64,000 nt of DNA, from NCBI GenBank assembly GCA_009829735.1, contig CM020620.1, forward strand, positions 2,607,447 to 2,671,446. The letters are read 5' to 3'. Of this stretch, positions 12,322-52,725 are shown piece after piece. The translations under genes were made by a program, and so were the position numbers. The notes beneath the pieces are model-generated. The model saw only the letters and a program-made list of their open reading frames with translations. It had not been told where the DNA came from and did not search any database. Source of the stretch: Pyropia yezoensis. Its lineage: Eukaryota; Rhodophyta; Bangiophyceae; Bangiales; Bangiaceae. Within the stretch, counting starts at the first letter, position 1. Each line of letters opens with the position of its first letter.

Positions 12322-12331
12322 GCGGATGGCG
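12322..12331. repeat. Left target-site duplication of the MULE
   Basis: GCGGATGGCG occurs here and again at 19440-19449, in the same orientation, immediately outside the two inverted repeats. A 10-bp duplication fits the 8-11 bp range known for Mutator-like elements. Confidence 0.7.
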
Positions 12332-12340
12332 TGTATGTGG

Positions 12341-12437
12341 CTGCAAGTAAGTAAGTATGGGTTGCTTCGAGTAAGGTTGGCACGTCTATTGTTAATTGGA
12401 CAGGGTTACTCGATGTGTCCAGCCGTACCTGTACCTC
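12341..12437. repeat. Left terminal inverted repeat of the MULE
   Basis: Starts with GCTGCAAG about nine bases inside the element. The 30-base core at 12349-12378 is identical to the inverted copy at the right end. It lies 30-126 bases upstream of the transposase ATG at 12467, so it probably includes the transposase promoter, as in other MULEs. Confidence 0.8.
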
Positions 12438-12466
12438 TAACCGAGCACCCGCCCTGGGCGGCAGAA

Positions 12467-15400
12467 ATGGCGCCATTGGCACCAAAAAGGGCGCGCTGGG
12501 CGCCAAAAAAGTGGCGCGCACCCGGACCGGCGCACGCCCCCGTCGTCGCCACCCCGCCCCCCGTCGTTGCCACCGCGTCGACCGCCGTCGGCAGCGCGGC
12601 CCGGTCGCCGCGCCGGCGCCCCGCGCTGTCGCCACCCCTTCCCGCGTCGTGGCCACCCTGCCCCCGGTCGTCGACACCCCGCCCCCCGTCGGCAGCGCGG
12701 CCCCCGTCCTGGGCACTCCGCCCCCCGTCGCCGCGTCGTCGCCGCCCATCGTCGGCACGCCGTCTCCCGTCGCCGCGCCGGCGCCCCCCGTCCTCGCCAC
12801 CTCGCCCCCCGTCGTGGACACCACCCCCCCCCCCCTTTGGGTCATCGTTCCTGCCGACGTCAGTTGCTATCGAGTTGGAGATGGCAACTACAGCGGCCGG
12901 AGGGGTGGGAGCTGGAGATGCGCCCCCATTCCCGGCTTCCGGAGCCTCCGACGCCGGTGGGCCGCGTTTGGGTGCAGAAGAGGAAACCTCTCTTCACCTG
13001 CCCGTGCTGGAAGTCGGTCCCAGACGGGCCAAGCGAACGCTGACGGCGGAGAAGGTGGTTGAGTGCCTCGTGGTGCCATCCTACCCGCAGACGTCGAGCT
13101 CAACGACGAGCGGGGTCCTGACCATGGTGCCAGTCGCATCGGTTGAGACGGGCCTGAGCCCTAAGAGCTTCGTGGCGTACAAGTCGCCGGGGGGGAAGAG
13201 CCGCAAGCTGTCGGATCAACTCTCGCTCAGCTTCGGCTTCTGCACGTACAGCTGGACCGAGTACCCGTGCTCTGGCGTGGACGCCTGCACCAACGTTCCT
13301 CGCGCTGTTTTGGACATCTCTCACACGGCGCTTGAAGCGGGGGACGCCGACCAGTACGCCGTCTATGAGAAGGTCTTCGCGGAAGCCAGCTCCGAGACCG
13401 CCTCGGCCGACACGGAGCAGCAGGCGCTGGCAAAGGAATGGGACAAGTACACCTCTGTCGTGGCGCCGTTTCAGCACAAGCAGTGCCCCAACGTCCTCTG
13501 CGCGCGCTTGGGGACCCCACCGAAGGGCAAGGTCGTGACGATCCTGTCGTCGGGCAGAAAGTTTCTGGGGTGCGCCGGCTACTCAAGCGTCAACCGGATG
13601 AACCACAAGAACGCTTCCATTGCCAACATCCAAAACATGAGCAACATTGAGAGCTGGATGAGCGATGAGAGGTACGTTTCTATGCGCGTGGGGGATGCGG
13701 CTCGCTTTGAGAATGATTCGTGAGCGAGATGGGCTGTGTTTTTTTACAACGCCCGGCGAGGGAGGTTTGGCGCACCTTTTCACAGCCCACCCCCATTGCA
13801 CTGATTCTGCTTGAGCCACGACAAGCCCCTACCGATGGCGGTGCTCCCCCGCTTGCCTCTGATCAATGGCCGACACGATTACTCGGCGGTCGACCCCCCG
13901 AGGTCGCGTGCCTTGCGGCAGTCCCGCCCCTCAACCATCTCGCCCCGCGGACGTCGCCGTGACATGGACCCCGCCCCCCTCCTCGCGACTGTCGCCGGCG
14001 GTGCTGCATTCCCGACGTATCTCTCCCAGTGGCATATGGCGAGGAGTAGTGCACACGCCCGGCCGCGGAGTACGGTGGCCCTATCTGCCCGCCAACTCTT
14101 TCACGATGGGCATTGTAGACGCACCCACCTCCATGCAACGGACGACCCCCCCGTCGTTCCTTGGGCGTCCATTCGACCGAGGAGACAGAGGAGCGGTCCC
14201 CAATGATGGGCGCCGGCCTCCCCCCCCTCCGCCGTGGTCGTGCGCGGAGTACTGATATCCTGTACCAATCGTTGCTTTTGACGTACTTTTCTCTTCCCTG
14301 GCTGCTGTTCTGTTTTTTTTATCTTCCGCAGAAAGGTGACGGATATCCCCGCAGGCGTCGGCACAAACCACCCATGCATGACTATCCGCCCGTCGGGATC
14401 GCGATCCGTGTGCAAGTCGCACGCTGGAAAGGCCCAAGCCCTCTCGCGCCACATCGCGTGCAGCAGCACCCTATACGTCGGGGTGCCGCTCACGGACAGC
14501 GGCGACCGGGACCTGCGGGGGAGCTTCCTCATCTTCTCAGTCGGCGTGCATACGCACCCCCCCCCCCCCATCATGTTCTCTACCCGTGGGCTTCTCGTGA
14601 CAGCCGCGGAGGTCAAGGAGCACCACCACATCTCGCTCGCGGCGGAGGAGGAGGACGTGCGCGCAAAGCTGGCCGAGGAGTACGGTCGGGTTGTGGCGGC
14701 CGTGCCGCAAACGGCGCTGCGGTATGCCCGCCGGCAGGCAGCGGCAGAGAGAAATCCGTGGGGGCAAGGCCGCGACGCGGCCCTACGGATGGTCGCTCGA
14801 GCGGTCGTGGCGGGGGACGCGTACTTCCGTGCCCCTTTTGTCTCTGACGCGACCGCGTACATTTTCCCGGCCTTTTTTGAGAGTAACGTGCGCCAGGTGG
14901 CGAACGGGGTGCTCGCGATCGAGACGGACGAGTACTACAAGGCGGTGGAGTCGGTCGGGCTGTCGCAGGACGGCGATTTTTTTGTGCTCGCCATCTCCAC
15001 GACGATCAACAACAAGGGCGTCACTCTGGCGCGCTTCTTTATCCAGCGGGCGACGCGGCTGGTGGCGCGCACCTGCTACCGCCTTTTTTTTCAGGAGGTA
15101 TTGAGGGTGAACCCCGACTGGGCGCCCTGGCACGTGCTGGTGCTGCGGCAGTTGTCGGTGGTGGACCCCGCGCTCGACGGCGCCCCATCCGCCGAGGTGC
15201 TCCGGCGGGCAACCGAAAACACCCGGCGGATGAAGCGCGGCGTGCTGGTGGGCGTCACACTGGACTTTTCCGCGTCGCTTGCGGGGGGGCTCTGCGACGC
15301 GCTCATTGACGTCGGCTTTGACGACTTTGACGTCGACGAGCACGCCCGCAGCATCCTCTTTGGCTGCAAGGCCCACGCTAACCGCGTGTGCGACCGGGCG

Positions 15401-16399
15401 CCGCTGACCGTGCGCGCGACGCTGCGGAGGCTTATTGAGTGTTACAACTTGGAGGAGGCGGAGCGGCTGCGCGCGTTGGTTATCCAGCAAGAGCCGACGC
15501 GCGACTCTGCCGGGGTGCTGGGGAACCAGCGCCTGCTTCCTGCGTTCTGTCCCGCCTTCTCTAAGGCCGACCACCTGCAGCGAGAGGTGGCCTCGTCGAC
15601 AACCAACGCTGAGGAGTCCCAGCACGAGCGCGTTTATAAGCTCTGTGGGCGTCGACAGCCGCTGATGGTGGCTATGACTGGCAGCAAGTTTGTTGACCAG
15701 CGGGATGCTGAGGAGCTGGAGAACGGCCGTGCCGCAGGCGCGTACACCTCGATGGAGCGTGCGGAGCACTCCCAGCGACGCCGGGAAAAGCGGCGCCGAG
15801 CAAACCGACGGCGAGACGGCGGCGGATCAGGGGGAGACGAGGGCACTGGAGAAAGGGGGGCTGAGCGCGCTGGTGAGGAGGAGCTCGTTGGACTGGAAGA
15901 GGTGGGTGGGGGGGAGGGAGGTAGGGGAGAGGATGGGGGGGACGCGGGAAGGGGCGAAGAGGGGGAGAGGGAGGGGGAATGGGCGGGAGAGGGCGGCGTG
16001 AGAGCACCGCTGGGAGACGGCGGGAACGCCACTCGACCACCCTTGCCAGCTGCCGCGGGCCAGCAGCCGAAGAAGCGGCGCCGGGCCGCTGTACGGGGGC
16101 CGCGCGGCACGGCGGCGGAACTCCGCATTGCCGAGCTGGAGAAGCAACTGCTGGAGCAGCGGAACAAGACGCTGGAGGCAGAGAACGCGGCGCTGAGGAG
16201 CCGTGCAGTCCTGGAAAGCGGCGGGGCTGGACGCGCGGCGCCAGTTGGCATTATGCCGGCAGCGGCAGTTGCCGCTGTGCCGACAGCGGCTGCTGCCTCT
16301 GTGCCGGCAGCCACGCAAGGAGACGCGGCACCGCCGGCCTGGTTCGTCAACCTCATGATGGCGGCGAGTCAGGGGCCTGCGTCAACGCCCCGGCAATGA
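12467..16399 (+). CDS. MULE transposase-like protein (two exons)
   Basis: Exon 1 is 12467-13671 (AG|GTACGT donor) and exon 2 is 14332-16399 (pyrimidine tract then CGCAG acceptor). They join in phase to give 1090 residues. A Pro-rich N-terminus is followed by a Cys/His-rich region spanning the junction: CPNVLC, then FLGCAGY, then a second block ending HIACSSTLYV and GVHTHPPPP, whose C...HxH ending resembles the FAR1/WRKY-GCM1 fingers found in MULE transposases. The core includes VTLDFSASLAGGLCDAL followed by a GCKAHANRVCDR (CxxH) segment, which fits the second catalytic Asp and C/H region of MULE enzymes; the full DDE triad was not assigned. A Glu/Gly-rich linker and a leucine-zipper-like coiled coil (LRIAELEKQLLEQ) precede the C-terminus. 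A second in-frame ATG at 12881 is an alternative start that would omit the Pro-rich repeats. Confidence 0.65.
12536..12830. repeat. Degenerate about 21-bp tandem repeats, left side of the MULE
   Basis: C-rich units of the type CCCCCCGTCGTCGCCACC recur across about 300 bp and, if translated, give the Pro/Arg/Ser-rich N-terminus of the transposase. The reverse complement of the unit resembles the G-rich units at the right end of the element, so the two arrays face each other in inverted orientation. Confidence 0.6.
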
Positions 16400-16670
16400 C
16401 TGCAGTACCGCCCGTGGAAACAATGACGGTGGCGGCCAGTAGGTTGGCCGTTCAATACTACTGCGTGCTTTTCCCTTGGCTTCTCGGTTGCACCCCAGGG
16501 CCCCAACCCCCCTCCACCCCGCTCATCGACGGGGGGGGGGGATGATGGCCGTGATGCCTCCCCAGTGCTCCTGCGCCTCCCCAGTGCACCCGCGTCAGAC
16601 CAGAACACGCACACCCCGCTCGCTGCAGCACAAGGACCCCACCTTCGCTGCCAGCCATTGACCGTGACAC

Positions 16671-16830
16671 CCTCCCCCCCCCCCCCTCCCCCCCCCCCCA
16701 TCCTCCCCCCCCCCTCCCCCCCCCCCATCCTCCTCCCCCCCGCGCTTGCCCTCCCCCCCCTCCCCCTGCCCCCCCCCCCCCTCCCGCCCCCCCCCCTCCC
16801 CCTCTTCCACCCCTTCCCCCCCCCTCTTGC
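16671..16830. repeat. C-rich homopolymer region inside the MULE
   Basis: Some 160 bases composed almost only of C with occasional T/A, downstream of the transposase stop. There is no gene in it. It marks the boundary between the transposase unit and the G-rich minisatellite half of the element. Confidence 0.8.
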
Positions 16831-16899
16831 CGCCGCTGCCGCCATGCACACCCAGAGCATGGTCGCAAATGGAACACCTCACCAACCGAGGCAGCTTTG

Positions 16900-17690
16900 C
16901 GCCGCTCTTCCCCACCGCGCCGCAGAAAGGCGGCCGCCGGAAAGAGGGCGCCCGTTGCTTGGAAGGAGTGGTCCCCGGCGGAGGGTGGCCGCCGCACGTG
17001 CGGGGTGGCCGACGCAGTGGGGTGACAGCCGTCGTAGGGGAGTGGCCGTCGCTAAGTGGGTTGGAGGGTGGCCGCGGCCAACAGGGGCTGCGCGTCGCCG
17101 CCGCGAGAAAGGCTCGACTGCCCAGCGGCGCCGGTGACGGCCGAAGGAAAGGGACGACAGCCGCGGGGGGGGGACGCCGCCAGGGGGGCCTGGCCACCGC
17201 AGAGGTGTGGCCACAAAGGGGGGGTCACGGCGGAAGAGGGGTCGCCGCAGGGGCGGGGTGGCCTCGGTATGAAAAATGGGACCGTTGCAGGGGGGAGGTG
17301 GCCATACTTGAGCGATGACAACCTCAGGTGGGGGCGGGGGGGGCATGCCGCGGGTGTCAAGTCCAACTTGCTGAGGGCCAGGAGCGGGGAAGGTGCCGGC
17401 GGAGAAGCGTTGCACTGAGGAGTCGGCCGCAGATGAGGGGTAGCCGCCACAGGGGGGCGGGGGCCCCCACATGGGCGACGTGGAATCAGGGCCGGAGGGG
17501 GCCGCAGTGGTGGGGTGGCCGCTACAGGGGGGCGAAGGCCACCCCAGGGGCGACGTGGCCGCAGGATGGCAGGTAGCCGGAGGGAGGGGTGACCACCCCA
17601 CGGGAAAAATCGCCACGCGCGAGGGCCGGCCGCCGGAGGGGGTATCGTCCCTGCGTGATGGACGCCGCGGCAGGGAGGGGGTCGCCGCAG
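16900..17690. repeat. Degenerate G-rich tandem repeats, right side of the MULE
   Basis: Variable units of about 20-25 bases with the core GGTGGCCGC...GGGG recur irregularly. They look like older, diverged copies of the units that form the regular arrays immediately to the right. Confidence 0.6.
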
Positions 17691-18245
17691 GGGGGTGCCG
17701 TGTCCGAGTGCTGGGGGGGGGCGGCTGCCGCCGCAGGACAGGGGGGGGTGACCGCCGGCAGGGGGGTGGCGCTTGGGGGTTGCCGCCGCTGCAGGGTGGT
17801 CGCCGGCAGGGGGAGGGCGCGTCCGAGGGGGGGGGGTGGCTGCCGCCGCAGGAGGGGGGCGGGGGTGGCCGCCGCCGCAGGACAGGGGGGGGTGACCGCC
17901 GGCAGGGGGGTGGCGCTTGGGGGTTGCCGCCGCTGCAGGGTGGTCGCCGGCAGGGGGGGGGCGCGTCCGAGGGGGGGGGGTGGCTGCCGCCGCAGGAGGA
18001 AGGCGGGGGTGGCCGCCGCCGGAGGACAGGGGGGGGTGACCACCGGCAGGGGGGTGGCGCTTGGGGGTTGCCGCCGCTGCAGGGTGGTCGCCGGCAGGGG
18101 GGGGCGCGTCCGAGGGGGGGGGGGTGGCTGCCGCCGCAGGTGGGGGGCGGGGGTGGCCGCCGCCGCAGGACAGGGGGGGGTGACCGCCAGCAGGGGGGTG
18201 GCGCTTGGGGGTTGCCGCCGCTGCAGGGTGGTCGCCGGCCGGGGG
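17690..18245. repeat. Tandem array, about 120-130 bp unit, four copies
   Basis: Higher-order unit containing GCCGCAGGACAGGGG, GTGGCGCTTGGGGGTTGC, CGCTGCAGGGTGGTCGCC and GGGCGCGTCCGAGGGG, repeated about four times. It shares its sub-motifs with the 84-bp array that follows. Confidence 0.75.
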
Positions 18246-19180
18246 GTGCCGCGTCCGACGGGGGGGGGGGGGGTAGCCGCCTACGCAGGACAGGGGGGGA
18301 CGCCGCTGCAGGGTGGTCGCCGGCCGGGGGGTGCCGCGTCCGACGGGGGGGGGGGGGTAGCCGCCTACGCAGGACAGGGGGGGTCGCCGCTGCAGGGTGG
18401 TCGCCGGCCGGGGGGTGCCGCGTCCGACGGGGGGGGGGGGGTAGCCGCCTACGCAGGACAGGGGGGGTCGCCGCTGCAGGGTGGTCGCCGGCCGGGGGGT
18501 GCCGCGTCCGACGGGGGGGGGGGGGTAGCCACCTACGCAGGACAGGGGGGGACGCCGCTGGAGGGCGGTCGCGGGCAGGGGGGTGCCGCGTCCGACGGGG
18601 GGGGGGGGGTAGCCGCCTACGCAGGACAGGGGGGGACGCCGCTGCAGGGTGGTCGCCGGCCGGGGGGTGCCGCGTCCGACGGGGGGGGGGGGGTAGCCGC
18701 CTACGCAGGACAGGGGGGGACGCCGCTGCAGGGTGGTCGCCGGCCGGGGGGTGCCGCGTCCGACGGGGGGGGGGGGGTAGCCGCCTACGCAGGACAGGGG
18801 GGGTCGCCGCTGCAGGGTGGTCGCCGGCCGGGGGGTGCCGCGTCCGACGGGGGGGGGGGGGTAGCCGCCTACGCAGGACAGGGGGGGTCGCCGCTGCAGG
18901 GTGGTCGCCGGCCGGGGGGTGCCGCGTCCGACGGGGGGGGGGGGGTAGCCACCTACGCAGGACAGGGGGGGACGCCGCTGGAGGGCGGTCGCGGGCAGGG
19001 GGGTGCCGCGTCCGACGGGGGGGGGGGGTAGCCGCCTACGCAGGACAGGGGGGGACGCCGCTGCAGGGTGGTCGCCGGCCGGGGGGTGCCGCGTCCGACG
19101 GGGGGGGGGGGGTAGCCGCCTACGCAGGACAGGGGGGGACGCCGCTGGAGGGCGGTCGCGGGCAGGGGGGTGCCGCGCCC
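18246..19180. repeat. 84-bp minisatellite, 11 copies
   Basis: GCCGCGTCCGACG recurs 11 times between about 18250 and 19100 at 83-85 base intervals. Each 84-bp unit is made of four related subunits of about 21 bases (GTAGCCGCCTACGC..., ACGCCGCTGCAGG..., GTCGCCGGCCGGG..., GTGCCGCGTCCGACG...). Alternating variants (CTGCAGGGTGG versus CTGGAGGGCGG; ACGCC versus TCGCC) form a larger pattern, implying duplication of blocks of several units. Because 84 is divisible by three, the array stays open in several frames on both strands. Confidence 0.9.
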
Positions 19181-19337
19181 AATGGAGGGGGGCTGGTTGC
19201 CGCCGCAGAAGGGGGGGGTGTGGTGGTCGCAGGACACGGGGGGATGACCGTCGGTCGGCGAGGGGGTTCGTTCCCCCTTGTCCCACAGGCGCAGGGGAGG
19301 GACGGGTGCGGCGGACACGTGGGCGGCCGACACGCTC

Positions 19338-19430
19338 GAGGTTCAGGTACGGCTGAGCAAGTATCCCGGCTCCGATCGTCACAGTCGTGCAAACCTTACT
19401 CGAAGCAACCCATACTTACTTCCTTGCAGC
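19338..19430. repeat. Right terminal inverted repeat of the MULE
   Basis: Inverted copy of the left end. 19392-19421 is identical (reverse complement) to 12349-12378, and 19338-19353 pairs with 12422-12437. Confidence 0.8.
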
Positions 19431-19439
19431 GCTCACCCC

Positions 19440-19449
19440 GCGGATGGCG
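19440..19449. repeat. Right target-site duplication of the MULE
   Basis: GCGGATGGCG, same orientation as at 12322-12331. Confidence 0.7.
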
Positions 19450-19741: not shown

Positions 19742-20171
19742 TCTAGTTTCTAGTCTACCGACCGCCTCATTTGAGCCGATTCGGCTCATTTGAGCCACTT
19801 TTTCGGGTCCTTTTTTTTCGTACTTCCCGTGGTCTCCTGCTCATGTTGACCACAGAAACGGACTCAGCGCAGGCTGTTTACTCTTGAAACATCTCGGGAG
19901 CGTCCCACCTAAGGGAAGTGCGCGTATGGAACGGGAGAGGTGCAGTATGGGGTGGGGTGGGGTGGGAAGGCTCCGAGGGGAACGAGGATGTGCGACAACG
20001 GATGAAGGTGACAGGCGGCTCACCGGCGCAGCTGAAGTGTGCCGGCGGCGACGCCAAGGCATGGGGTCGAACCGTGCCTCCAAGGGTCAGAATCGACGAC
20101 TTTCGTGAGGCTCATTTGAGCCTCAGGACCGGCTCGTTTGAGCCTTTTTTCCCGGTAGACTAGACACTAGA
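19742..20171. mobile_element. MITE-like element, about 430 bp, with terminal inverted repeats
   Basis: 19742-19760 (TCTAGTTTCTAGTCTACCG) matches the reverse complement of 20153-20171 with one difference. Just inside both ends are paired copies of the palindromic word GGCTCATTTGAGCC (19768-19797; 20107-20146). There is no coding capacity. Flanking target duplications are not evident, so the superfamily is unassigned. It sits directly upstream of the LtrA-family gene and 300 bp from the MULE. Confidence 0.65.
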
Positions 20172-24928: not shown

Positions 24929-26605
24929 TCAGGCGCCCGTCACATCAATCTCCTCGACCGCTGCAGAGGGTGCGGGCCCCGCCGCCATGAAGCGTTCTGT
25001 GCAGATGCGGAGCCCCTGGGCGGCCACCTCCAGCCCCCGCGGCGGGGGCGCGTCGAGCTCAGCCAGCGCGCGGGCGGCGGCGTCTAGGAACTCAATCTCG
25101 GTCAGCGTCGGGCGGTCCACCCCCGGCTTGGCGGCGGCCGCCGCCGATGACGCGGCGGCGCCGGCCGGCGCCCCGGCGGCGGCCGCCCCCGCCTGCGCAA
25201 CCGTGACAAACGGGACGGGGTAGAGGACGCCCCCGCCGTCGGGCGTCGGCTTGTCCGGGTCCCCCGCGACCGACGCCAGGCCGTGTTCGGCGACCGCGTC
25301 GAGGTCGTCAAACGGCACCGCGGTTGGGTCGCAGAGGAGGAGCGCCAGCTCCCGCCGCGTCCACGCCGACTCGGGGCGGGCGGCTAGCCGCGGGCCCGCC
25401 TCCGCGTCGGTGCACTCAGCGTGGTGGCGAGCTACCCAGTCGCGCGCCTGGCATGCCGGGCCGCAGTAGTGGACTGCGTGGCAGCGGGAGCAACGGTCAA
25501 TGAGAGGGTCATTATCGATGTCAGAGACGTCGGTGCTGCCGCCGCCAGTGCTCGTCCCGTCGCCCACACCAGAGGCGGCGGCACCCGCCGCCGCCGCCGC
25601 CTCCGCCGCCGCCGCCGCCGCAGCCAGCCGCCGCCGCCGCCCTCGTTCGGCTAGCCTCCGACCGCACGCTGCGCACGTCACCACCTCACCCCCATACACA
25701 GCAGGCAGCTCCTCACCCTCGCCAAAGACAGGTGCGCCACGCCCCGTGGCGCGAGTAAACTTGGCCTGCAGCGCCACTAACGACGGAGCGGCAACAAAGC
25801 CCGTCGCGTCGCCGTCCGAGCCAAACACGCTCACATAGTACACACGGCCGTCCAGGGACGTAATCCGCAGCGCGATGCTCTCTGGGAGCACCCGCCACGG
25901 CCGTGCCGCGGCCATTACGGCCGCCGAGTCGTGGAGCGACCGAAGAACGGGCACCGTGACGCCAGGGGTGCGAAGCAGCCCCGGGTGGCCCGACGCCTCG
26001 CCAATCGCGGCCGTATCCTTTTCCACCATCTTGGCCGACAACGACGCCACGTACTCGGCAACGCCCTCCGCGAGCGACAGCGTCTGGGGCTCGATGTCAG
26101 CGGCAATCAGCGCAGGAGTCGCCGCCGCCGTCGTGGCCGCGTCCACAAATGTCACCACATCTGGTCGCACCCGTGGCGCGTTGTCGCCGGCAGGTTCCGC
26201 CATAGCCGCCAGTGCAAAGCGGAGGAGCTCAGATGCTGGTGGCGGCACGTCGACGCGTGTCCGTACGCGGCCAAAGCCCGAGACACGGCCGGACGGGTAG
26301 AGCTCCAGGGCAAAGTTGTAATAGGGACGAATAACGCGGCCAGTCGCGGGGTCAGTCGCCCACACGCGGAGCGGGACGGCCACAATTTGCCAGACGCGCT
26401 TGGAGCCGCCAGACCCGGCGCGGGAGGAGCGGGGTAGGGCACGAACGGACTTGACGAGGCGGCTAATCTCGGGAGAGTAAATTGGGGTGGCAGCCTTAGA
26501 CGGGGAGGGGGGGGTGGGGGTCACAGCCTTGGCCGCGACGTTGTCCTTGGAGGGGGGCGGGTCCATTGTAGCCGTGGCGGTTGCAGGGGCGTCTCCCTCT
26601 GCCAT
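24929..26605 (-). CDS. MYND-type zinc-finger protein
   Basis: Frame of 558 residues from the ATG at 26605. A MYND finger lies in the C-terminal half: CAACGRRL, an Ala/Arg-rich and Ser/Gly-rich insertion of about 55 residues, then CSRCHAVHYCGPACQARDW and HHAEC, giving the C-x2-C...C-x2-C...YC-x3-C...H-x3-C ligands. The upstream part (residues about 50-330) has a conserved look (VWQIVAVPLRVWATDP, VYYVSVFGSDGD) but no domain I recognise. MYND fingers mediate protein interaction. The frame stays open to 26818 with coding-like sequence but no ATG and a stop seven codons further up, so an upstream exon ending in an AG near 26800-26825 is possible. Confidence 0.7.
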   Translation of the reverse strand: MAEGDAPATATATMDPPPSKDNVAAKAVTPTPPSPSKAATPIYSPEISRLVKSVRALPRSSRAGSGGSKRVWQIVAVPLRVWATDPATGRVIRPYYNFALELYPSGRVSGFGRVRTRVDVPPPASELLRFALAAMAEPAGDNAPRVRPDVVTFVDAATTAAATPALIAADIEPQTLSLAEGVAEYVASLSAKMVEKDTAAIGEASGHPGLLRTPGVTVPVLRSLHDSAAVMAAARPWRVLPESIALRITSLDGRVYYVSVFGSDGDATGFVAAPSLVALQAKFTRATGRGAPVFGEGEELPAVYGGEVVTCAACGRRLAERGRRRRLAAAAAAAEAAAAAGAAASGVGDGTSTGGGSTDVSDIDNDPLIDRCSRCHAVHYCGPACQARDWVARHHAECTDAEAGPRLAARPESAWTRRELALLLCDPTAVPFDDLDAVAEHGLASVAGDPDKPTPDGGGVLYPVPFVTVAQAGAAAAGAPAGAAASSAAAAAKPGVDRPTLTEIEFLDAAARALAELDAPPPRGLEVAAQGLRICTERFMAAGPAPSAAVEEIDVTGA

Positions 26606-28067
26606 CGCGGTACCCCCGGGGAAAGGTACGGTGGGTACGTCGTCGGTCGGGGCAGCTACGAGGGAGCGGCTGTCAATAACCGGCGTGCACACGCTCAGCA
26701 GTAGGGTGGCTGGGCCGCCGGCCTCGGACAATAGCCAAGCAAACGCGCTCGCCAAGCCAGCGTCTGCTGACAATACGGCGACGGGGTAGGGGCTCCGTGC
26801 GTACTGGATCGACTCCAAGCCGACCGTCCGCTCTCAACGACGCATCAGAAGGTAGTTTCGCCAATCCGTTAACGGTGACGAAAGACAGAGAGACCGTCGG
26901 CAATGACAAGGGACTCGGCGACAGGCATAGAGCGGGACACCATGCACCACCGCAAACAGGTGTGGGGAAGAAGACCCCGACGTGAACGGTAATTACTACC
27001 AAATTTCTTGGCCGTAAAGAACAAGAAATTGGACCGGAAGTCGCTTTAAGAACGCTGGTGATTCGGATCACACGCACCTTTATCCGGCTGCTCACGAGAC
27101 GCTATAAGAACCACAACGGCGGTGCGCATCGATTGCCCGCCGTGTGCGGCAAAAGCACGACCTCCCCTCTGCCACGGGCGAGGCATCTCTCCATGGGCCT
27201 ACATCCCGCCTCGGGGGGGTCTAGAGCGATCCACTAAGGCCTCTTATTAGGAAAGCCCGAGTCGTGCACATCTACGTGACGACGGGTGTCGGAGGAGCGC
27301 CCACATCCATGTTCTCCCCCCCCTCTCCCACTATCACTGGCCGCTCCCACTCTCACTGACCACTCTTTGTTTGACGCTGGACCGCGACGCGTTTTGCTCC
27401 TCGCGGGGTTGACTAGCGAGCATGTGTTCCTCTCAACCTATGTAGTTTGTCTGCTGTGCCTGTGTTGTTGGTTGAGTTGTTCGGCGTTCGCGTTCGCGTT
27501 GCGTGAGCTTTTTGATGGTCCTTTGTCACCAGCGTCGGTGTCACATGGACCATGAGGTGCGGCATTGGCACCTCCTGTCGCGGTCGGGGACCTCATGGAA
27601 CTTCTAGCTGGGAAGGCGGACGGGCGTGGCACTACACTGCTCGCCTGCACTGTCGAGCGCAATCGCGGTTCGTGTGACCGAGTTTGCTTGCTAGCTGGCA
27701 CCACGGTCCTTCCGTCGTTCCTTGTCACACTTGTTGAGTAACAAGCAGTGCTCTACTTCTTTTGTTCTGGTTTTTTGTTTCAGTTGTGTGCTTGTCGTAT
27801 GCCATTGAGTCAGGCGTAATGCCTTTCACCTCCCGTTACCTGAGTGTTCCTTGTCTCATCAACATTTCACCGCCCACCAAGCTAGTTTTCCTAGCGAGAA
27901 CAGCAGTTTCCTCTGTATAGACTCATCGCTTCGTACAATACATGATGTCGGTCTTATCCATACACGCAGTCGACACACCAGCGGGACACTCCCGTCCTTG
28001 TACACGATACCGCCAAAGTCAATACAATAATAACTATGCACGCTCCCTCACTCGCTCAAATCACGGG
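26606..28067. other. Intergenic, relatively AT-rich
   Basis: No gene is supported. 26980-28050 has clearly lower GC than the rest of the window, with T-rich stretches (27745-27790). It probably contains the promoter of the MYND gene (right-to-left) and the 3' flank of the phosphatase gene. No repeats were found. Confidence 0.5.
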
Positions 28068-33770: not shown

Positions 33771-34457
33771 CGTCGCAGGAACAGGGGGGGGGGGGGGGGG
33801 GGGGTAGCTGGAGGGTGGGTGAGGCTTTGTCACCTACTGGAGCAAACGTTCAGCGGCGTGCGGCACGGCCATGCCGGCCTTGCAGCGGGATCGTGATACA
33901 AGGACGAGACGGAAAACAAGAACGGTCGGTCCACGTACTGGTGGTGGCATAGCACGGCATCACGCTCTGTCAGTTACATGCCAGGCACACGCTGCGTCGC
34001 TGCCGCCGTCACTGCTGCCTCTGACGTGGCGTGAAGGGGGACGTGCGCGTGTTGTGCGCCCCGTCCCCACGCTGTCGTTCCGGTGGGGTCTTGGTAGGAC
34101 GGCACCGGGTGTTCAAACGTGATCGAAAAGATTCCGAGCGAAACATTTCGTCGTCGTTTTTCCATCTTTCTCTCGCGGTCTTTCTCATCCAAACCTGCGG
34201 CGTTCGTCCTGCTGACCGCCTCCACTCCGCGCGGTGACAGCAGCTGCGTATCGCCTGCCCGGGCAGCTGCCCACCCACGCGGCTCGCTGCTCCCCATCGC
34301 GCCTCGGCAGGCCAGGCTGGGCATGCCGGCCCGCCGCGTCTTTGCCGCCGTCGCCCTCTTGGTGGACAGTGGCCGACGCCCTCGTCGTTCCCTCCTCGCT
34401 CCCCGTCGTCCGGGTGGGATAGTGCCGGGCGTCCTCCGCACTCCATCGAGGGGCATC
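33771..34457. other. Intergenic / leader of ALG6
   Basis: Contains a run of 22 G at 33785-33806 just after the ZZ gene stop. No gene was seen. The frame of ALG6 is open through part of it; an in-frame ATG at 34323 is an alternative ALG6 start. Confidence 0.5.
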
Positions 34458-36278
34458 ATGCCGGCGGACCCCGCCCCCCCTGGGGGGTGGCGGCGGTGGC
34501 AGCAGCCGCGGCGCCCCCCGCAGCCGTTGCCGGGTTTGCCCCTCGTTGTGGCCTTTCTCCTCCTCCGCGCGGCGGTGGGTCTGCACCCCCACTCGGGGGA
34601 GGGCACCCCCCCCATGTACGGGGACTTTGAGGCGCACCGGCACTGGATGGAGCTGACCGCCGCCCTCCCCCCCCGCGACTGGTACACGGCGGGCCCCGCG
34701 AATGACCTCGGCTACTGGGGCCTCGACTACCCGCCGCTGATGGCCTGGGCCTCCCGTGCGGCCGCGCCGCTCGTTGCCGCCGCCGACGGGGCGGCCATGG
34801 CGCCGGGGCGCGCCAGCCGCGGCTACGAGAGCCCCGCCGCCCGCGCGGCGATGCGGGCGGTCGCCCTCGGCGCCGACGCGTTGGCGGTGCTGCCGCCCCT
34901 GTTGGCCGCCCCACGCCTGCTGCGTGGCCACCCGCGCGGGGCGTTGTGGGCGGGGTGGGCGCTCGGCGCCGCGGTCGCCGCGTGCCCCGCGGCGGTGCTG
35001 GTTGACCACGGCCACTATCAGTTCAACGGGGTGCCAACGGGGCTGCTACTTGCCGCCCTCGTGGCGTGGGAGGTGGGCGGCGACGGCGCGGCCGCCGCGG
35101 CGGGCGCCCGGTCGGTGGTGGCCGACGCGGCGGGCGCTGCCGCCCTCACCGCCGCGGTTGCGTTCAAGCAGACGACCGCCGTGTGGGGGCCCCCAGCCGC
35201 GGCGCTGTTGTTGTCGCGCGTAGTGGCCCGCGCGCGGGGGGGGGGGACGACAGGCGCCGCGGCCGCGGCCGCCTACGCGGTTGCCGTGGCGGGGGCGGTC
35301 GTCGCCGTCCTTGTTGCCGCCTGCTGGCCGTGGCTGGTGGGGGGGCGGCCCACGCTGGCGGGCCTCGCCGCCCGCCTGGTGCCCGTTGACCGGGGGCTGT
35401 ACGAGGACAAGGTCGCCAACCTGTGGTGCGTCCTGTCGGTGGTGGTCAAGGCGCAGCGCCTCGCGTCACGGCGCACCCTCCTGGGCGTGGCGGCGGCCGC
35501 CAGCGCCGCCGCCGCCGCCCCCTTTGTCGCCGCCGTGGCGGTGGCGGTGGCGGGCTCGGCGGGGGGCGGCCGCCACGGCGCCCCCCCGCGGCACCCCCCG
35601 GGTACCGTTGGGGCGGTGATGTCGGCGGCGACCGCCGGCTGCGCCGCGGGCGCCTTCCTCTGTGGCTACCAGGTGCACGAAAAGCACATCCTGCAGGTGC
35701 TGGCGCCGCTAGCGGTGCTCGCCCCCGCGGCCCCGCGGGTGGTGGCCACCGCCTCAGCACTCGCCGCGTTTACCCTCTACCCGCTGCTCCACCGGGAGGG
35801 CCTCGCCACCGCCTATGCGGGCGTCCAAGCGGTACACGCGGTGGTGTTTGGGAGGCACCTATGGGCGGGCGCGCTCGCGCCCGCTGCTGCTGTTCACGCC
35901 GCGACCGCGGCGGGGGTGGTGTCGGTGCCGGGAGCGCCCGACGCGGCGGCGCTGCTGTTTGCGGGCATCGGGTGTGTGGGCGTGCTCGCGCTGTACGTGT
36001 GGCTCCTTGGGGGGGTCGCCGTCGCCGTCGGCTGGTGGGCGCCCCGCCGGCCATGCGTGCGGCGGGCGCTTGACATTGTGGGCGTCGCCGGGGGGGAAGA
36101 CGGCCGGGGGGGGAGGGGAAAGGAAGGGAACGACGTCGGCCGGCCGGCAGGGCCTTGGGCCGGGGTGGTGCGGGGAAGCAGCAGCGGAAGCAGCGGGGAG
36201 GGCTTCCCCGCTGGCAAGGGGGAGGCACCGCCCTCCCACCGCGGCGGCGGCCGCCGCCGCCGGTCGCCACAGCCATAG
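34458..36278 (+). CDS. ALG6: Dolichyl-P-Glc:Man9GlcNAc2-PP-dolichol alpha-1,3-glucosyltransferase (ALG6)
   Basis: ER membrane enzyme adding the first glucose to the lipid-linked oligosaccharide for N-glycosylation. The intronless frame gives 606 residues from ATG 34458. The ALG6/ALG8 signature is clear: FEAHRHWMELT near residue 56, DWYTAGPANDLGYWGLDYPPL near 75-93 (YWGLDYPPL distinguishes ALG6 from ALG8), VDHGHYQFN, AFKQTTAVWGPP, RLVPVDRGLYEDKVANLWC and GYQVHEKHILQV. The acidic residues of the first lumenal loop (GDFEAH and WGLDYPP) that the family needs for catalysis are present. Multiple Ala/Val-rich membrane segments separate the motifs. A Gly/Arg-rich tail of about 80 residues follows the last helix. 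An upstream in-frame ATG at 34323 could add 45 residues. Confidence 0.9.
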   Translation: MPADPAPPGGWRRWQQPRRPPQPLPGLPLVVAFLLLRAAVGLHPHSGEGTPPMYGDFEAHRHWMELTAALPPRDWYTAGPANDLGYWGLDYPPLMAWASRAAAPLVAAADGAAMAPGRASRGYESPAARAAMRAVALGADALAVLPPLLAAPRLLRGHPRGALWAGWALGAAVAACPAAVLVDHGHYQFNGVPTGLLLAALVAWEVGGDGAAAAAGARSVVADAAGAAALTAAVAFKQTTAVWGPPAAALLLSRVVARARGGGTTGAAAAAAYAVAVAGAVVAVLVAACWPWLVGGRPTLAGLAARLVPVDRGLYEDKVANLWCVLSVVVKAQRLASRRTLLGVAAAASAAAAAPFVAAVAVAVAGSAGGGRHGAPPRHPPGTVGAVMSAATAGCAAGAFLCGYQVHEKHILQVLAPLAVLAPAAPRVVATASALAAFTLYPLLHREGLATAYAGVQAVHAVVFGRHLWAGALAPAAAVHAATAAGVVSVPGAPDAAALLFAGIGCVGVLALYVWLLGGVAVAVGWWAPRRPCVRRALDIVGVAGGEDGRGGRGKEGNDVGRPAGPWAGVVRGSSSGSSGEGFPAGKGEAPPSHRGGGRRRRSPQP

Positions 36279-47222: not shown

Positions 47223-50200
47223 TCAAGCCGCGGCCTCCTCCGTCGCGGTCACCCCAACACCGCCCTCGGTGTTGTGAAACTCGGAACGAGCGGCGGCCGA
47301 CGTCTTCTGCGCCATCCACAGCGTCCACACAGCGAAGGGCACGCAAACGAGGATGGTCACCCCGGCAAGCACTGCCCCAATCCATCCATCAGGGTCACGG
47401 TCCCGGTTCATTAAGCCAACAGAAATGAGGGAGAGCGATGTCATGATCTTGATCACTACGCAGGTGTGAGACGAAGCAGGGTGCATGCAGAGTGGCAGCA
47501 AAAATCACCAGAGCAGGGTGACGACAAAAGAGGAGGAATCGCAGGCAGCAAACACAGGCAGACAGACGCAGACAGGCCGTCAGCAGGTCTGCAAGGCACG
47601 GCGAACGAAATGAAAACGAGACGGCGCTACTCCCATCAGCCCGCACCACTTCTCTGACAGTGCACAGCGTCTTCCCCCCCCCATCACACAAACAGTCGTC
47701 GTCCAAACGTACGAATATTCATGGATGGCCCTGAGGTGTCCTTGAATGGGTCCCCGACGGTGTCCCCTGCAACCGTGGCCTTATGCCACTCGGATCCCTT
47801 CCCGTTGCCCGCCCCGAAGTACCCGCTCTCGGTCAGCTTCTTCGCGTTGTCCCACGCGCCGCCGGCATTACTCATCATGATGCCCACCATGTACCCGCTG
47901 CCGATGCCAGCCAGAAGGAGCCCGATGAGGGCGCGCTGGCTGTCACATATGGAGACGGGGAGTGCGGAACCAGACACGGAAACGAAGCGCGCCAACACAT
48001 CAGCAGTACCGCCATGTGAGTAAGGGCCTCCGCTCTGCCACCCATTCGCTCCCCCCCCTTCCGCCACGGTGCTCCGTGCTCCCGCATCTCACCTGGCTCT
48101 CACCAGAAACAATCAGCCCTACCACCTCAACAACGTACCCGAAACCAAATCCGACAATGAGTGGTGCCATGATGGCGATGGCCCCTGGCAAAGCCATCTC
48201 AATGATAGCGCTCTGCGTCGAGATGTTCACGCACCGCACGTGCTGCGGCTGCACGCCCCGGGCGCCCTCACGCAAGCCTGGGATGTCACGGAACTGCCGG
48301 CGAACTTCAACGATCATCGCTTGCGCAGCGCGGCTGACAGCCAACATGGTGAGCGCACCAAAGAAGAAGGGCAGCATGATGCCAATGAAGACCGACACGA
48401 CAACGTAAATGTCCACCAACGACACAACCTGGCCGCCGTCCGTGACGTGCGCCCCCGCAACGCCGGCCGCTGCCGCCGCAGGCCCAACCAACTGGAGCGG
48501 GTTCGGGGCCAGCCCCGAGTCTTGAACGAGTGCCGTTAGCAGCGCGTAAGCGGTGAGCACGGCCGAGCCGTTGGAGAAGCCCTTGCCAGTGGCGGCTGTA
48601 GTGTTACCCAGTGCGTCCAGCGCATCAGTGGTGTCCCGGACCTCTGAAGGAAGGCCAGCCATCTCAGCAATACCGCCGGCATTGTCCGCGACGGGCCCGT
48701 ACGCGTCTGTCGCCATCGTCACGCCCAGAGTTGACAGCATACCAACCGCAGACAGAGCAATGCCATACGTACCAAATAGCTCGTAGGTTCCCAGGATAAC
48801 GGCGGCTACCAGCAACAGAGGAGGCACAACGCTGAGCATACCAACTCCCAGGCCTTGGATCACCACCGCGCCCGCGCCAAACTCGCCTGCTGCTGCAATC
48901 CCCAGCGTTGGCGCATATGAGCCAGCCGTGAAGAACTCGGTCAACCCTCCAATGAGCAATCCTGCCCACAAACCCAGCAGGATGCAGAGGAACAGACGCC
49001 AAGGCACTTGAGAAGGCGAGGTAAACTGGAACCCCAGCGAGTCATACGGCTCATAGTGCGCGAGCGGGTCCAACCGCAGCTGAGAGGCGAGGATGGTCCC
49101 ATTGGTCGGCAAGACGAAAGCGAGCGGCGGGCACACCCCCTCATTGGCCAACACAACGCGTGGGAGGTTGTCGGTGCCAAAGCCCGTTGCTTCATGGAAA
49201 TCTGAGTTGCCTCCAAACATGCCCCAGCACAGAGCAGCGGCGGCCACCACGATCAGCAAGGATGACGAGTAAATGTTGATACGAAGCGAGCCAAGAAGAG
49301 ATTCCATGACCTTCCCCTTGTCCTTTTCCGTTGCCAGCTTGGGCGACACCCATACGTAGGCTGTACCGAGAATGCCTACAACCACCCCCGCGGCCGCAAG
49401 CATAAATGGCAGAGCAATGAAGATGGCATTGCTCTGCCAGATGCTCAGCGACGGGTACGCTTCCGCGATGGGGCCAGAGCACAGGATGTTGGCGAACGAC
49501 ACCTTGGAAAGGCTCGTCTCGTCCCGCGCAGGGCACGCTGCGTCCAGCGCAAGGTGGTTGAACACGCAAAGCGCCTGCCGGTTGCCCTGGAAGTAAGGAA
49601 GCGACGAGCCCAGAATGGCTGTGGCCACCAGCGAGCCAACATACGACTCAAACAGGTCCGCACCCATGCCCGCCACGTCGCCTACGTTGTCCCCAACATT
49701 ATCAGCAATCGTGGCCGGGTTGCGCGGGTCATCTTCGGGAATGTCAGCTTCAACCTTCCCGACCAGGTCAGCACCAACGTCTGCAGCCTTTGTGTAGATA
49801 CCACCGCCTACGCGCGCAAAGAGTGCAATCGTCGAAGCGCCTGCGGAAAAGCCCGCCAGCGCCCGCACGTCCCGAAACACGAGAAAAACGAAGGAGAGGC
49901 CCGTGAGGCCAATGGAGACCACCGACAGGCCCATGACGGCGCCCGACCGGAACGCCACGTTGAGTCCCTCGCTGATACCCTTCCGCGACGCCGCCGCCGT
50001 CCGCACGTTGCCTCGGGTAGCAATAGACATGCCGAGGAAGCCTGTCACTGCCGAAAGGACGGCACCAATTCCATAGCAGCCCGCCGCCGCCCAGTTCAAG
50101 GCAAAGCCAACAAGCACGAAGATGATGACGACCAGCCCGACGAGGTAGAGGTACTCGGTGCGGAGAAAGGCAATGGAGCCCTGCCGGATGTAGGTCGCAA

Positions 50201-50612
50201 TCTCAATCATCCGCGGCGTGCCCGGGTCTTCACGCAGCACAGAGAGTGCGTAGAAGGAGAGCACCGCCATGCCGAGCACGCCAACGGTCATGGAAGACCA
50301 TATATACTGAATGGGCACCGCCAGAGGCAGCGTGCGGAAGACGTACTGGTCGCTGCCCACGTCGGTCACGTCGCAGAGGTCGCCTATGCGGCACGCAAAG
50401 ATGAGCCCAGCCAGCACGGTCAGCGCCACAAACGTCCCAAGGAAGATGGCGGTCGCCGCCAGCAGCAGCACGGACGTGTGGGCCGAGTCGCGGACCAAGG
50501 CAGGGTCGCCCAGCGCCTCTTGCGTCTCCCCCTCCTCATTGGCTGTCGTAATCTTGTCCGCCTCAGCCTTGGCCTCGGCCGAGCTGCTGGAGCTGGCCTC
50601 TGGATTCGCCAT
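47223..50612 (-). CDS. Vacuolar-type H+-translocating inorganic pyrophosphatase
   Basis: Proton pump hydrolysing PPi in vacuole or acidocalcisome membranes. Three exons: 48093-50612 (CAG|GTGAGA), 47713-47935 (C|GTACGT) and 47223-47455, joined in phase to give 991 residues. The junctions rebuild LIVSGESQ+[10 protein letters not shown] and SMNI+[11 protein letters not shown]. Catalytic motifs are intact: [35 protein letters not shown] split across nt 49690-49790, and GGAWDNAKK in exon 2. [11 protein letters not shown] has Ala at the position that marks K+-dependent enzymes (type I); K+-independent enzymes have Lys there. About 16 membrane helices are expected. The start ATG at 50612 gives a Ser/Glu-rich cytosolic N-terminus. 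At 991 residues it is longer than plant enzymes (about 770), owing to the N-terminus, lumenal-loop insertions and C-terminal tail. Confidence 0.95.
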
Positions 50613-52725
50613 GGTCGTCAGGCGGAGCGGGCTGAGCAGACACTCCTGGCCGCCACCCGCAAGGGCCACGACAGTGAGCGGAACAGTGGGGAATCGCCCG
50701 TCGCCGCGACGTGCGTTGCAGAGGCCCAAAGCACGAAAGGACAAGCCCTTTCACCCTACGCGCCAGCGTGCCCCGCTGAAAGGAGGGAGCTCAACAGGCA
50801 CGCGGACTGGGGCGCAGGGCCCGGCCGTCTCGGGTCGGCGGCACGGCGGTCGGCGGGGCCGTGCACGAACGTGGGACCGTCCCCCCGGGGCAGAGATCGA
50901 TCACCGCGGGAACGTCAAGGGGGTCTCAGCTAGGGGGACCGGCCGGGGGCATGGCGAGGCCGCGCCTCCTTTTGTACCCTTCTCCATCTGGCCCACCGAC
51001 GCAGCGGGCCCACGGTCCATGTGCAGAGCAAACAGTCCAGCGCAAGCGTACAGTACCACCTTGCAGGCACGGCGTGGCGGACTGGGGGCGAGGGTGGTCG
51101 CCCCAAGACTGGGAGCTCAGCAGCAATGATTGACAGGCGCCGTCCACGCGGCTGGTCGTGAATCTGTCAACGTCGACAATAGAGAGGGTTGACCGCCACG
51201 GCCGTTGCCCACCCTCTGATCTGCCAAGGGTCCCAAAAGCTGGAAGAAAAATAAACAAGCTGAGGGAGCCGATGCAAATCTCCGCCGCTTCTTGGCCCGG
51301 CGGTCTACCAGTGGGTGTGGCGCTTGGCCACAGCGGAGAGCTCCCAACGGGTGGTCGCAGCCAGCCCCCGTCGAGAGGCGTCCGAGATGCGAGATCCAAG
51401 TGAGCGCCAGCCGTCCTCTTTCAGACCTTCCACGAGGCAGCGTGACAATCCACGAGCCGGAGGGCTGGTGGCTGCTTCATCAGCTGTCCGAGCGGGTCAT
51501 CCAGCTGTATCTGAGGGTTCCCCTTCCCCCCTTTCCTCTCTCTGGAAGGGCGGAAGAATGAACGCGAGCGCAAAATCCCGCGGCCCGGGAGTGAAGGAAA
51601 CGTAGAAGCAAGACGTTGGTTGGTGCCGTGGCCGGTCATCAATCTGCCTTGATGCAGACATAGAATTGGCGGGCGGTGCGAGGGCGGCCCGAAACGGATG
51701 GATCTTGCGGTGGCGGAACCAATGCCGGCGGTATGAACGCCTTGCTGACTTTCTGGATACGACGGGTGGTCTGGGGTGCTACCTAAATTCAGGGCGACTC
51801 CCGGTTTTGCAGCCGCCGGAGACCCACACGGTGCGTGCAGTACAGTACCCGATGACCAGAGTCCTTCCGCAACACGTGTCCACGTCCCCCGGTCCCCACA
51901 CAGCCGAGTGGACGGGGCCTTGGTCACAGGTGATGACGCCCGCAACCCGTCACCATTACTGTTAAATGTAGCGCAGCTGCTGAGCAGGACGTTACTTGTC
52001 CGGTGTGTGTGATACATAAAGTACATTGTACAGTATTACCAAAGAAAGTGTATCTGTGTCTGCGTGCGCGCGCGTGCCACCGACCTCTCTTGTTCCTGAG
52101 ATACCTACGTTACTTAAAGCGCAGTTGACCAAGGTCGCCGTCTGCGGAGGCTCATCGGCCCGTACTGGCGCTTGCGAAGTGCTGAGGATGGTCTTGTACA
52201 TACTGTATATATTGCACCGCTCCGCCTCTGTTGGGGGGAGTGGTGCATGACACCGCGGCTAACGTTATTTAGTTATGGATAACACAAAAAAAAGCGGGCA
52301 GTCCGCTCACTGGTGCGCGCCGCCACTACACCCATGATGGAACAATACAGTACCATCGGCGGTGCCACCTACAGGAACAGCCACGGCCGGAGCGCCTGCA
52401 GTGGTCATCATAGAGAGCGGCGCGCCTACGTCAGTTGCGAGTTGGCGAATCCTTGGCGCCTCGCTAAGCATCACCCCAAGATGCACCTTCCGTGACGTGA
52501 ACTGGGAGTGGAGACCCTCTGCCTTTAGTCAGACGGCCATTAAATGAGCACGTTATGGTAAGGTTGCTGTTCAGTTGACAGCGGTGACTGCCCCTCTCCA
52601 AACAATTCTCGCTGTGGTACGACCAGCAATCCTCGCAGCAACCTCGCTCCCTTCAGATCGCAGATCATCCAAAAACCAGCAAGTACGGGCGGTATCCCCC
52701 CCCCACACGCGCTGCCCGCCCCTCC
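50613..52725. other. Intergenic region of 2.1 kb
   Basis: No gene is supported. 51960-52300 is AT-richer with palindromic words such as GTACATTGTAC (52021) and TTGTACATACTGTATATATT (52194). It probably includes the PPase promoter at its left end. Confidence 0.5.

Follow-up and report, generated by a model that had tools for sequence, protein, structure and literature searches.

Mutator-like elements (MULEs) such as Muta1 of Aedes, MuDR and Phantom combine target-site duplications of 8-11 bp with terminal inverted repeats (TIRs) and a protein carrying an N-terminal finger, a set of acidic residues and a CxxH motif. For these elements TIRs of 14-500 bp and fingers of the FLYWCH, SWIM, CCHC and other types are described (PMC6446971). 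The same source lists Rehavkus, an outgroup of the MULEs, from arthropods and annelids and gives it 9-bp duplications, TIRs of 26-400 bp, one open reading frame (ORF), a PHD finger and a minisatellite before the 3' TIR. Red algae already figure among the hosts of MULEs: MULE-Cc is listed for Rhodophyta, where groups 36 and 38 have SWIM fingers and TIRs of 192-640 bp and a 9-bp duplication is given for group 38 (PMC6446971, Table 1). A similarity between IS256 and MULE transposases has been described, along with a C/DxxH motif in an IS256 member (PMC7780238), and CxxH is reported as common to MULE and hAT (PMC5225508). Here we analyze a 7.1-kb element within a 64,000-nt stretch of the genome of the red alga Pyropia yezoensis (nori), referred to below as the window. 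The element is most likely a cut-and-paste transposon of the Mutator-like (MULE/IS256-type) kind, apparently complete and probably autonomous, from a divergent lineage that expanded in nori.

The genome searched comprises 107.5 Mb in 11 contigs, on which the window corresponds to C3:2607447-2671446. Within the window the element extends from 12331 to 19439 (7109 bp) and is an inverted-repeat DNA transposon from end to end. Its boundaries are as follows:

12322-12330, no strand: left target-site duplication GCGGATGGC, 9 bp, identical to 19440-19448
12331-12454, plus strand: 5' TIR, starting GTGTATGTGGCTGCAAG, with an identical 30-base core at 12349-12378; this end is common to five long copies
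19321-19439, minus strand: 3' TIR, ending CTTGCAGCGCTCACCCC, placed by alignment with the 5' end
19440-19448, no strand: right target-site duplication GCGGATGGC, 9 bp, identical to 12322-12330

The 30 bases at 12349-12378 and 19392-19421 are identical in inverted orientation, as had been noticed in an earlier reading of the bare letters (the sequence-only reading), and the 48-nt end arms are 94% complementary. That reading let the inverted similarity extend to about 100 bp, which was borne out by a gapped TIR alignment of about 117 columns with a local score of 58, compared to a maximum of 17 in 1000 mononucleotide shuffles. In the genome search a 119-base probe from the left end also matched the right end of the window element (E 2e-15, 80% over probe positions 9-106). 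The outermost 9 bp or so of the 3' TIR are not inverted copies of the 5' terminus.

The element had previously been placed at 12332-19439 with a 10-bp duplication. GCGGATGGCG does stand literally outside both ends, but the same G opens all five long copies of the element in the genome, all of which begin GTGTATGTGGCTGCAAG and end CTTGCAGCGCTCACCCC. This base therefore belongs to the element, which starts at 12331 and not one base later, and the duplication measures 9 bp; the right end stays where it had been put. The length agrees across copies, with CTGTCGACT at locus L012, ATAGCAGCC at L014, CGCTCCAGC at L015 and CTGCACGGC at C2:13332k. Two features typical of MULEs, a target-site duplication of 8-11 bp and inverted repeats that are often long, are thus present here.

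With the left-end probe we found five places in the genome at 96-100% identity, each with a right end 6.3-7.1 kb away. Looking for further copies with the same TIR, as the sequence-only reading had suggested, thereby yielded four more long copies and, in addition, deletion derivatives. The long copies (L009 in the window, L010, L011, L012 and L013) span 6257-7109 bp, aligned end to end. At aligned positions four of them are mutually 99.2-99.6% identical, and L013 shares about 97.5% identity with those four, most of the length difference stemming from tandem arrays at about 17.7-19.2 kb of the window. The flanks differ among all five. Near-identity of the copies is also what suggests that the family was recently active, as had been proposed; the window element seemingly moved recently, and the family may be active at present.

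A TIR pattern with up to 2 mismatches allowed gave 22 matches in the genome and 0 in the reversed control. Among ten independent end pairs, five show perfect 9-bp duplications (L009, L012, L014, L015 and C2:13332k), one matches at 8/9 positions (L013), two match at 7/9 (C3:28022k and C2:22796k/22817k) and two show none. Two derivatives with internal deletions, L014 (2616 bp) and L015 (929 bp), each have their own perfect 9-bp duplication. A 2.6-kb derivative is found twice, at C2:13314k and C2:13332k, with the same flanks, in opposite orientation and about 18 kb apart, which represents an inverted segmental duplication; the twins were counted once among the end pairs. Their terminal run is one G shorter, so that the ninth duplication base is shared with the element. 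At C2:22796957 and C2:22817236 family ends stand inverted at a distance of 20.3 kb, with 7/9 flanking bases in common and a transposase fragment near one end; the pair marks either one copy of great length or an element that carries nested insertions. In L010 (C2:16561783-16570438, element on the reverse strand) the right flank starts with ACATACAC, which repeats the first eight bases of the element in reverse complement and may be left over from a second insertion or from hybrid-end transposition. Recombination between L010 and L011 that swapped their flanks was considered and rejected, as the flanking 9-mers do not pair.

The element carries a two-exon gene that is open throughout in the window copy and would encode the transposase:

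12881-13671, plus strand: exon 1, from the better conserved ATG (12467 in the sequence-only reading), carrying CPNxxC and FLGCxxYxxxNRxxHKN
13672-14331, plus strand: intron, GT...AG, 660 nt, splice position predicted from the sequence and conserved among loci
14332-16399, plus strand: exon 2, 688 codons and stop, with the remainder of the putative finger, the putative catalytic domain and the C-terminal helix
14557-14569, plus strand: 13-C tract inside the putative finger, of variable length among copies and breaking the frame in some

The two-exon gene of 1090 codons claimed before is indeed open in the window copy, but it requires a C at 12824 that is private to this copy and lacking in the other four. 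Four of the five long copies have the ATG at 12881 in frame, L013 having a 1-nt deletion after it, and this ATG is the probable start codon of a predicted 952-aa product. Exon 2 is open in three of the five, while L010 and L011 are frame-broken at the poly-C tract. The window copy and L012 are the only two that look undamaged across the coding part covered.

In the genome as a whole exon 2 matches at least 53 stretches at 32-100% identity, located at 34 separate places after grouping. We fetched 20 loci and found both exons in 18 of these, 14 with GT...AG at the same protein position and introns of 133-676 nt; in L022, L024, L035 and L036 one or both splice sites are imprecise. The C tract, which lies at HTHPPPP, has 13 bases and is in frame in L017-L019 and L029-L031, and it is shorter with a shifted frame in L020 and L021 (these are the copies L010 and L011), L027, L032 and L034. 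Interrupted tracts keep the frame in L022-L026 and in L036, which breaks further on, and shift it in L035, where the interruption is a T. Since the Pyropia yezoensis assembly consists of Quiver-polished PacBio RSII reads (PMC7423979), one-base differences in the length of long C tracts may stem from errors in the assembly; they may also mark a hot spot of slippage.

We also assessed selection on the catalytic part by Nei-Gojobori counting of nonsynonymous and synonymous divergence (dN/dS) in 19 pairs. All seven pairs with dS of at least 0.25 gave dN/dS between 0.13 and 0.21, and all eight pairs outside the window group with dS of 0.018-0.244 gave 0.37-1.08, the split at 0.25 having been chosen after the values were seen. 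In each of the eight close pairs a copy with a stop or a broken frame takes part. Within the window group, the four pairs (undefined, 0.17, 0.34 and 0.70) hold too few changes to mean much. The transposase gene shows purifying selection, in a pattern that fits a mobile gene kept under selection during its movement and degenerating at its landing sites.

Conserved positions within the predicted protein, numbered by exon-2 residue, are the following:

14411-14569, plus strand: remainder of the putative Cys/His finger (CKSH, C, HTHPPPP), from conservation among family members
14927-14929, plus strand: proposed first catalytic Asp (D1), residue 199, in ETDEYYK, present in 10 of 10 members, assigned by eye
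15263-15265, plus strand: proposed second catalytic Asp (D2), residue 311, in GVTLDFSASL, present in 9 of 10 members, assigned by eye
15365-15376, plus strand: CxxH (CKAH), residues 345-348, C in 10 and H in 9 of 10 members, aligning with the CxxH of IS256-type proteins
15614-15616, plus strand: proposed catalytic Glu, residue 428, second E of STTNAEES, present in all 9 members that cover it, aligning with the IS256-type TTNxxE
16124-16198, plus strand: C-terminal heptad-like stretch RIAELEKQLLEQRNKTLEAENAALR, similar in L022, L024, L029, L030 and L036

Conserved Cys and His residues stand at the end of exon 1 (CPNxxC, FLGCxxYxxxNRxxHKN) and at the start of exon 2 (C, CxxH, C, HxHPPP), probably forming one or two zinc-binding modules with the intron between them that recognise the inverted repeats. 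Pfam returned no match for this finger, so the idea of a Cys/His finger split by an intron, already put forward by the sequence-only reading, draws its support from conservation and not from a profile. D199 (AIETDEYYK) appears to be the best candidate for the first Asp, and the context of D311 resembles that of the second Asp of IS256, both judged by eye. The CxxH motif (GCKAHANR) is intact in 9 of 10 members; in L013 (the same copy as L019) Arg replaces its His. Because the profile alignment described below pairs TTNAEE with TTNxxE, the second E, residue 428, is the likely catalytic Glu. What had been called a C-terminal coiled coil is a heptad-like stretch, judged from the sequence, that recurs in several relatives and is a possible dimerisation zipper.

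Taken as a mechanism, the two-exon gene would give rise to a transposase whose N-terminal Cys/His finger would bind the inverted repeats of about 120 bp. An RNase H-like domain (D199, D311, E428 and CxxH 345-348) would cleave the ends and link them to the target, and a 9-bp stagger at the target would leave the 9-bp duplications. The C-terminal heptad-like stretch may dimerise the protein, and the copies with internal deletions, whose ends are of the same kind, would have been moved in trans.

Support for the proposed superfamily comes from a single profile score of moderate size, from conserved motifs and from the anatomy of the element. As a comparison set we collected PF10551 matches in Bacteroidota (34 of 296 genomes at E<=0.001, 24 of them over the cut-off, and 3 genomes from a separate search) and kept 17 of 26 loci with an ORF of at least 320 aa, some below the curated cut-off. 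By their motifs we take these 17 proteins to be IS256-type, and the set is coherent, all 17 matching all others. A profile of the nori family (alignment A2, 8 members) was compared with it by hhalign and scored 31.0 (P 0.0032). This value was not reached in any of 150 column shuffles (maximum 28.1), and the reversed profile gave 11.6. The aligned stretch runs from GCKAHANR to STTNAEESQHERVYK and pairs CxxH with CxxH and TTNAEE with TTNxxE. Control sets initially scored 13.2 (ISL3) and 15.6 (IS4). We then cleaned them: 4 of 13 ORFs in the ISL3 set were unlike the rest, and the IS4 set splits into groups, with L131 and L133 dropped as a separate pair. After cleaning the scores were 15.7 for ISL3 (9 ORFs; 14.4 for an intermediate set of 11), 19.9 for IS4 (11) and 12.3 for IS4 (4). 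The IS256/MULE match above controls stands after this step, with a smaller margin.

Several results count against the transposon being a Mutator-like element of this kind. At E<=10, Pfam gave no family match, PF10551 included, for 10 family members and none for the spliced protein read from 12881 through the catalytic part, a search in which most weak matches are lost to the HMMER filters; nor did the whole genome yield any match to PF10551 (MULE) at E<=0.001. The hhalign probability is 10%, over 91 columns, and a forced global alignment gives nothing. If D199 is the first Asp, its distance to D311 is 112 (about 111 residues between them), and the window protein lacks a Trp in the stretch from residue 348 to 428. 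For the catalytic domain, an AlphaFold2 model from a single sequence reached a pLDDT of 35 and was not used. Among the long copies, two of five (L010 and L011) have no target duplication, three of five look damaged, and the eight bases complementary to the left terminus in the right flank of L010 are unexplained. A search of the genome with the window flanks joined, as in a paralogous empty site, matched only those two flanks, so that no empty site of the kind the sequence-only reading had suggested looking for turned up. The MULE assignment of that reading is still supported, by the remote profile alignment and the anatomy but by no Pfam match, and its remark that the lineage is not obviously like plant MuDR is right in the sense that standard profiles miss the nori family.

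hAT and KDZ profiles are part of Pfam-A, and they likewise matched neither the 10 members nor the spliced protein, leaving all three superfamilies named in the sequence-only reading without a Pfam match; hAT target duplications are 8 bp long, compared to 9 bp here. Matches taken as chance were a sub-cut-off Pfam match of the exons to ferrochelatase (E 0.019), an NCBIfam match to GrpE in 2 of 10 members (best E 0.064), located in the heptad-like part of the window protein, and two PDB sequences (E 2.3 and 7.3), a second PDB search giving none. Searches of viral contigs and of genome contigs turned up no relative.

Two tandem arrays flank the gene inside the element:

12537-12832, plus strand: C-rich 21-bp tandem array, 14.2 copies, 65% matches, upstream of the likely start codon
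17713-19204, plus strand: G-rich minisatellite before the 3' TIR, a 144-bp unit repeated 3.9 times followed by an 84-bp unit repeated 11.8 times, from tandem-repeat analysis

Arrays of 21 bp also occur in the relatives L037 and L039, and a short one in L038. All three have tandem arrays 3' of the ORF, their 3' TIRs not having been located. Between the 5' C-rich and the 3' G-rich array the eight matches listed are inverted but weak (best E 0.001, low-complexity DNA); that the two arrays might be inverted copies of each other is a lead. The minisatellite is possibly a spacer, a binding array or a by-product of replication.

Compared with the described MULEs, the nori element agrees in duplication length, TIRs, a putative N-terminal finger and conserved acidic residues with CxxH, and its length falls within the 1.4-10 kb given for arthropod MULEs (PMC13359780). 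It differs from them in the missing PF10551 match, the D1-D2 stretch of about 111 residues, the lack of a Trp between CxxH and Glu and the G-rich minisatellite of about 1.5 kb. The D1-D2 spacing is stated as 60-76 in arthropod MULEs, with 84 in Ghost (PMC13359780). Muta1 has D214, D283, H307, W401 and E419, with 69 from D1 to D2 and 136 from D2 to Glu, and its W401, 18 residues before E419, is reported to be essential (PMC5225508); the nori family has a conserved F/Y at residue 409, 19 residues before Glu. Bacterial IS256 gives the best profile-profile match of the sets compared, with CxxH followed by [ST]TNxxE, but ORFs there have about 400 aa compared to 952, and the nori Cys/His finger is not seen in the IS256 material described. 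In ISCth4 the residues are D175, D241, C262/H265 and E348, with 66 from D1 to D2 and 107 from D2 to Glu (PMC7780238). The D2-Glu distance of 117 in nori thus lies between those of ISCth4 and Muta1, whereas its D1-D2 distance exceeds both. MULE-Cc groups 36 and 38, compared by description only, share the red-algal host and, for group 38, the 9-bp duplication, but have SWIM fingers and longer TIRs (PMC6446971), and the nori protein has no SWIM match.

These differences raise the alternative that the family is a separate lineage of superfamily rank, with a CxxH-type RNase H fold like that of hAT or IS256, and neither MULE nor Rehavkus. No profile match apart from the chance one to GrpE, the long D1-D2 spacing and the missing Trp would fit this, but the 9-bp duplications and TIRs of about 120 bp are MULE-like, and CxxH...TTNxxE matches the IS256/MULE set and not ISL3 or IS4, with hAT, P and KDZ outside that comparison. 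We consider such a lineage rather unlikely. With the same reserve the family can be pictured as a third, unnamed branch beside MULEs and Rehavkus, in which the D1-D2 region expanded by about 45 residues, an aromatic residue took the place of Trp and the 3' minisatellite serves, maybe, as a transposase-binding array.

Doubtful to a greater degree is that the nori family belongs to Rehavkus itself, the MULE outgroup, and not to MULEs proper. The description of Rehavkus fits in the 9-bp duplication, TIR length, single ORF and position of the minisatellite before the 3' TIR (PMC6446971), and arrays 3' of the ORF recur in the three nori relatives examined. Rehavkus is known from arthropods and annelids and has a PHD finger, however, whereas the host here is a red alga and the protein has no PHD match; the two were compared by description only. 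Nor is the minisatellite diagnostic, as aphid Phantom MULEs also have one after the ORF (PMC6446971).

If the element is Mutator-like, it might still follow an IS256-like route of copy-out/paste-in via a circular intermediate in place of cut-and-paste, given that its closest profile match is IS256-type and that a study of copy-out/paste-in deals with ISCth4 (PMC7780238); Muta1, a eukaryotic MULE, undergoes excision and reinsertion in yeast (PMC5225508), no feature of the nori sequence shows the copy-out route, and we regard it as very improbable. That the long repeat is a segmental duplication or a domesticated host gene family is barely credible: two of five long copies lack target duplications and one 2.6-kb derivative does lie in an inverted duplication together with its flanks, but the flanks of the five long copies differ, the window flanks, searched as one joined sequence, match nowhere but at their own two positions, precise ends and perfect duplications in 5 of 10 pairs contradict it, and close copies show raised dN/dS with stops.

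The proposed Mutator-like transposon of the window is ordinary in kind and its branch looks divergent; searches of the open-licence literature turned up no description of the nori family. As Pfam misses all 10 members scanned, annotation based on domains would leave such genes unrecognised as transposases. Its near-identical copies make the nori lineage a candidate for a natural insertion tool in a crop seaweed, and as a divergent branch it could help to clarify how IS256, Rehavkus and MULEs are related.

Elsewhere in the window, ORFs match an H+ pyrophosphatase (48000-50744, minus strand, E 4e-187), an ALG6/ALG8 glycosyltransferase (34119-36278, plus strand, E 9e-73) and a MYND finger (24929-26818, minus strand, E 5e-8), all of them ordinary eukaryotic neighbours. 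Just to the right of the element, at 19766-19796 and 20109-20144, two stretches each contain the short inverted-repeat motif GGCTCATTTGAGCC, or a close variant of it, in two copies.

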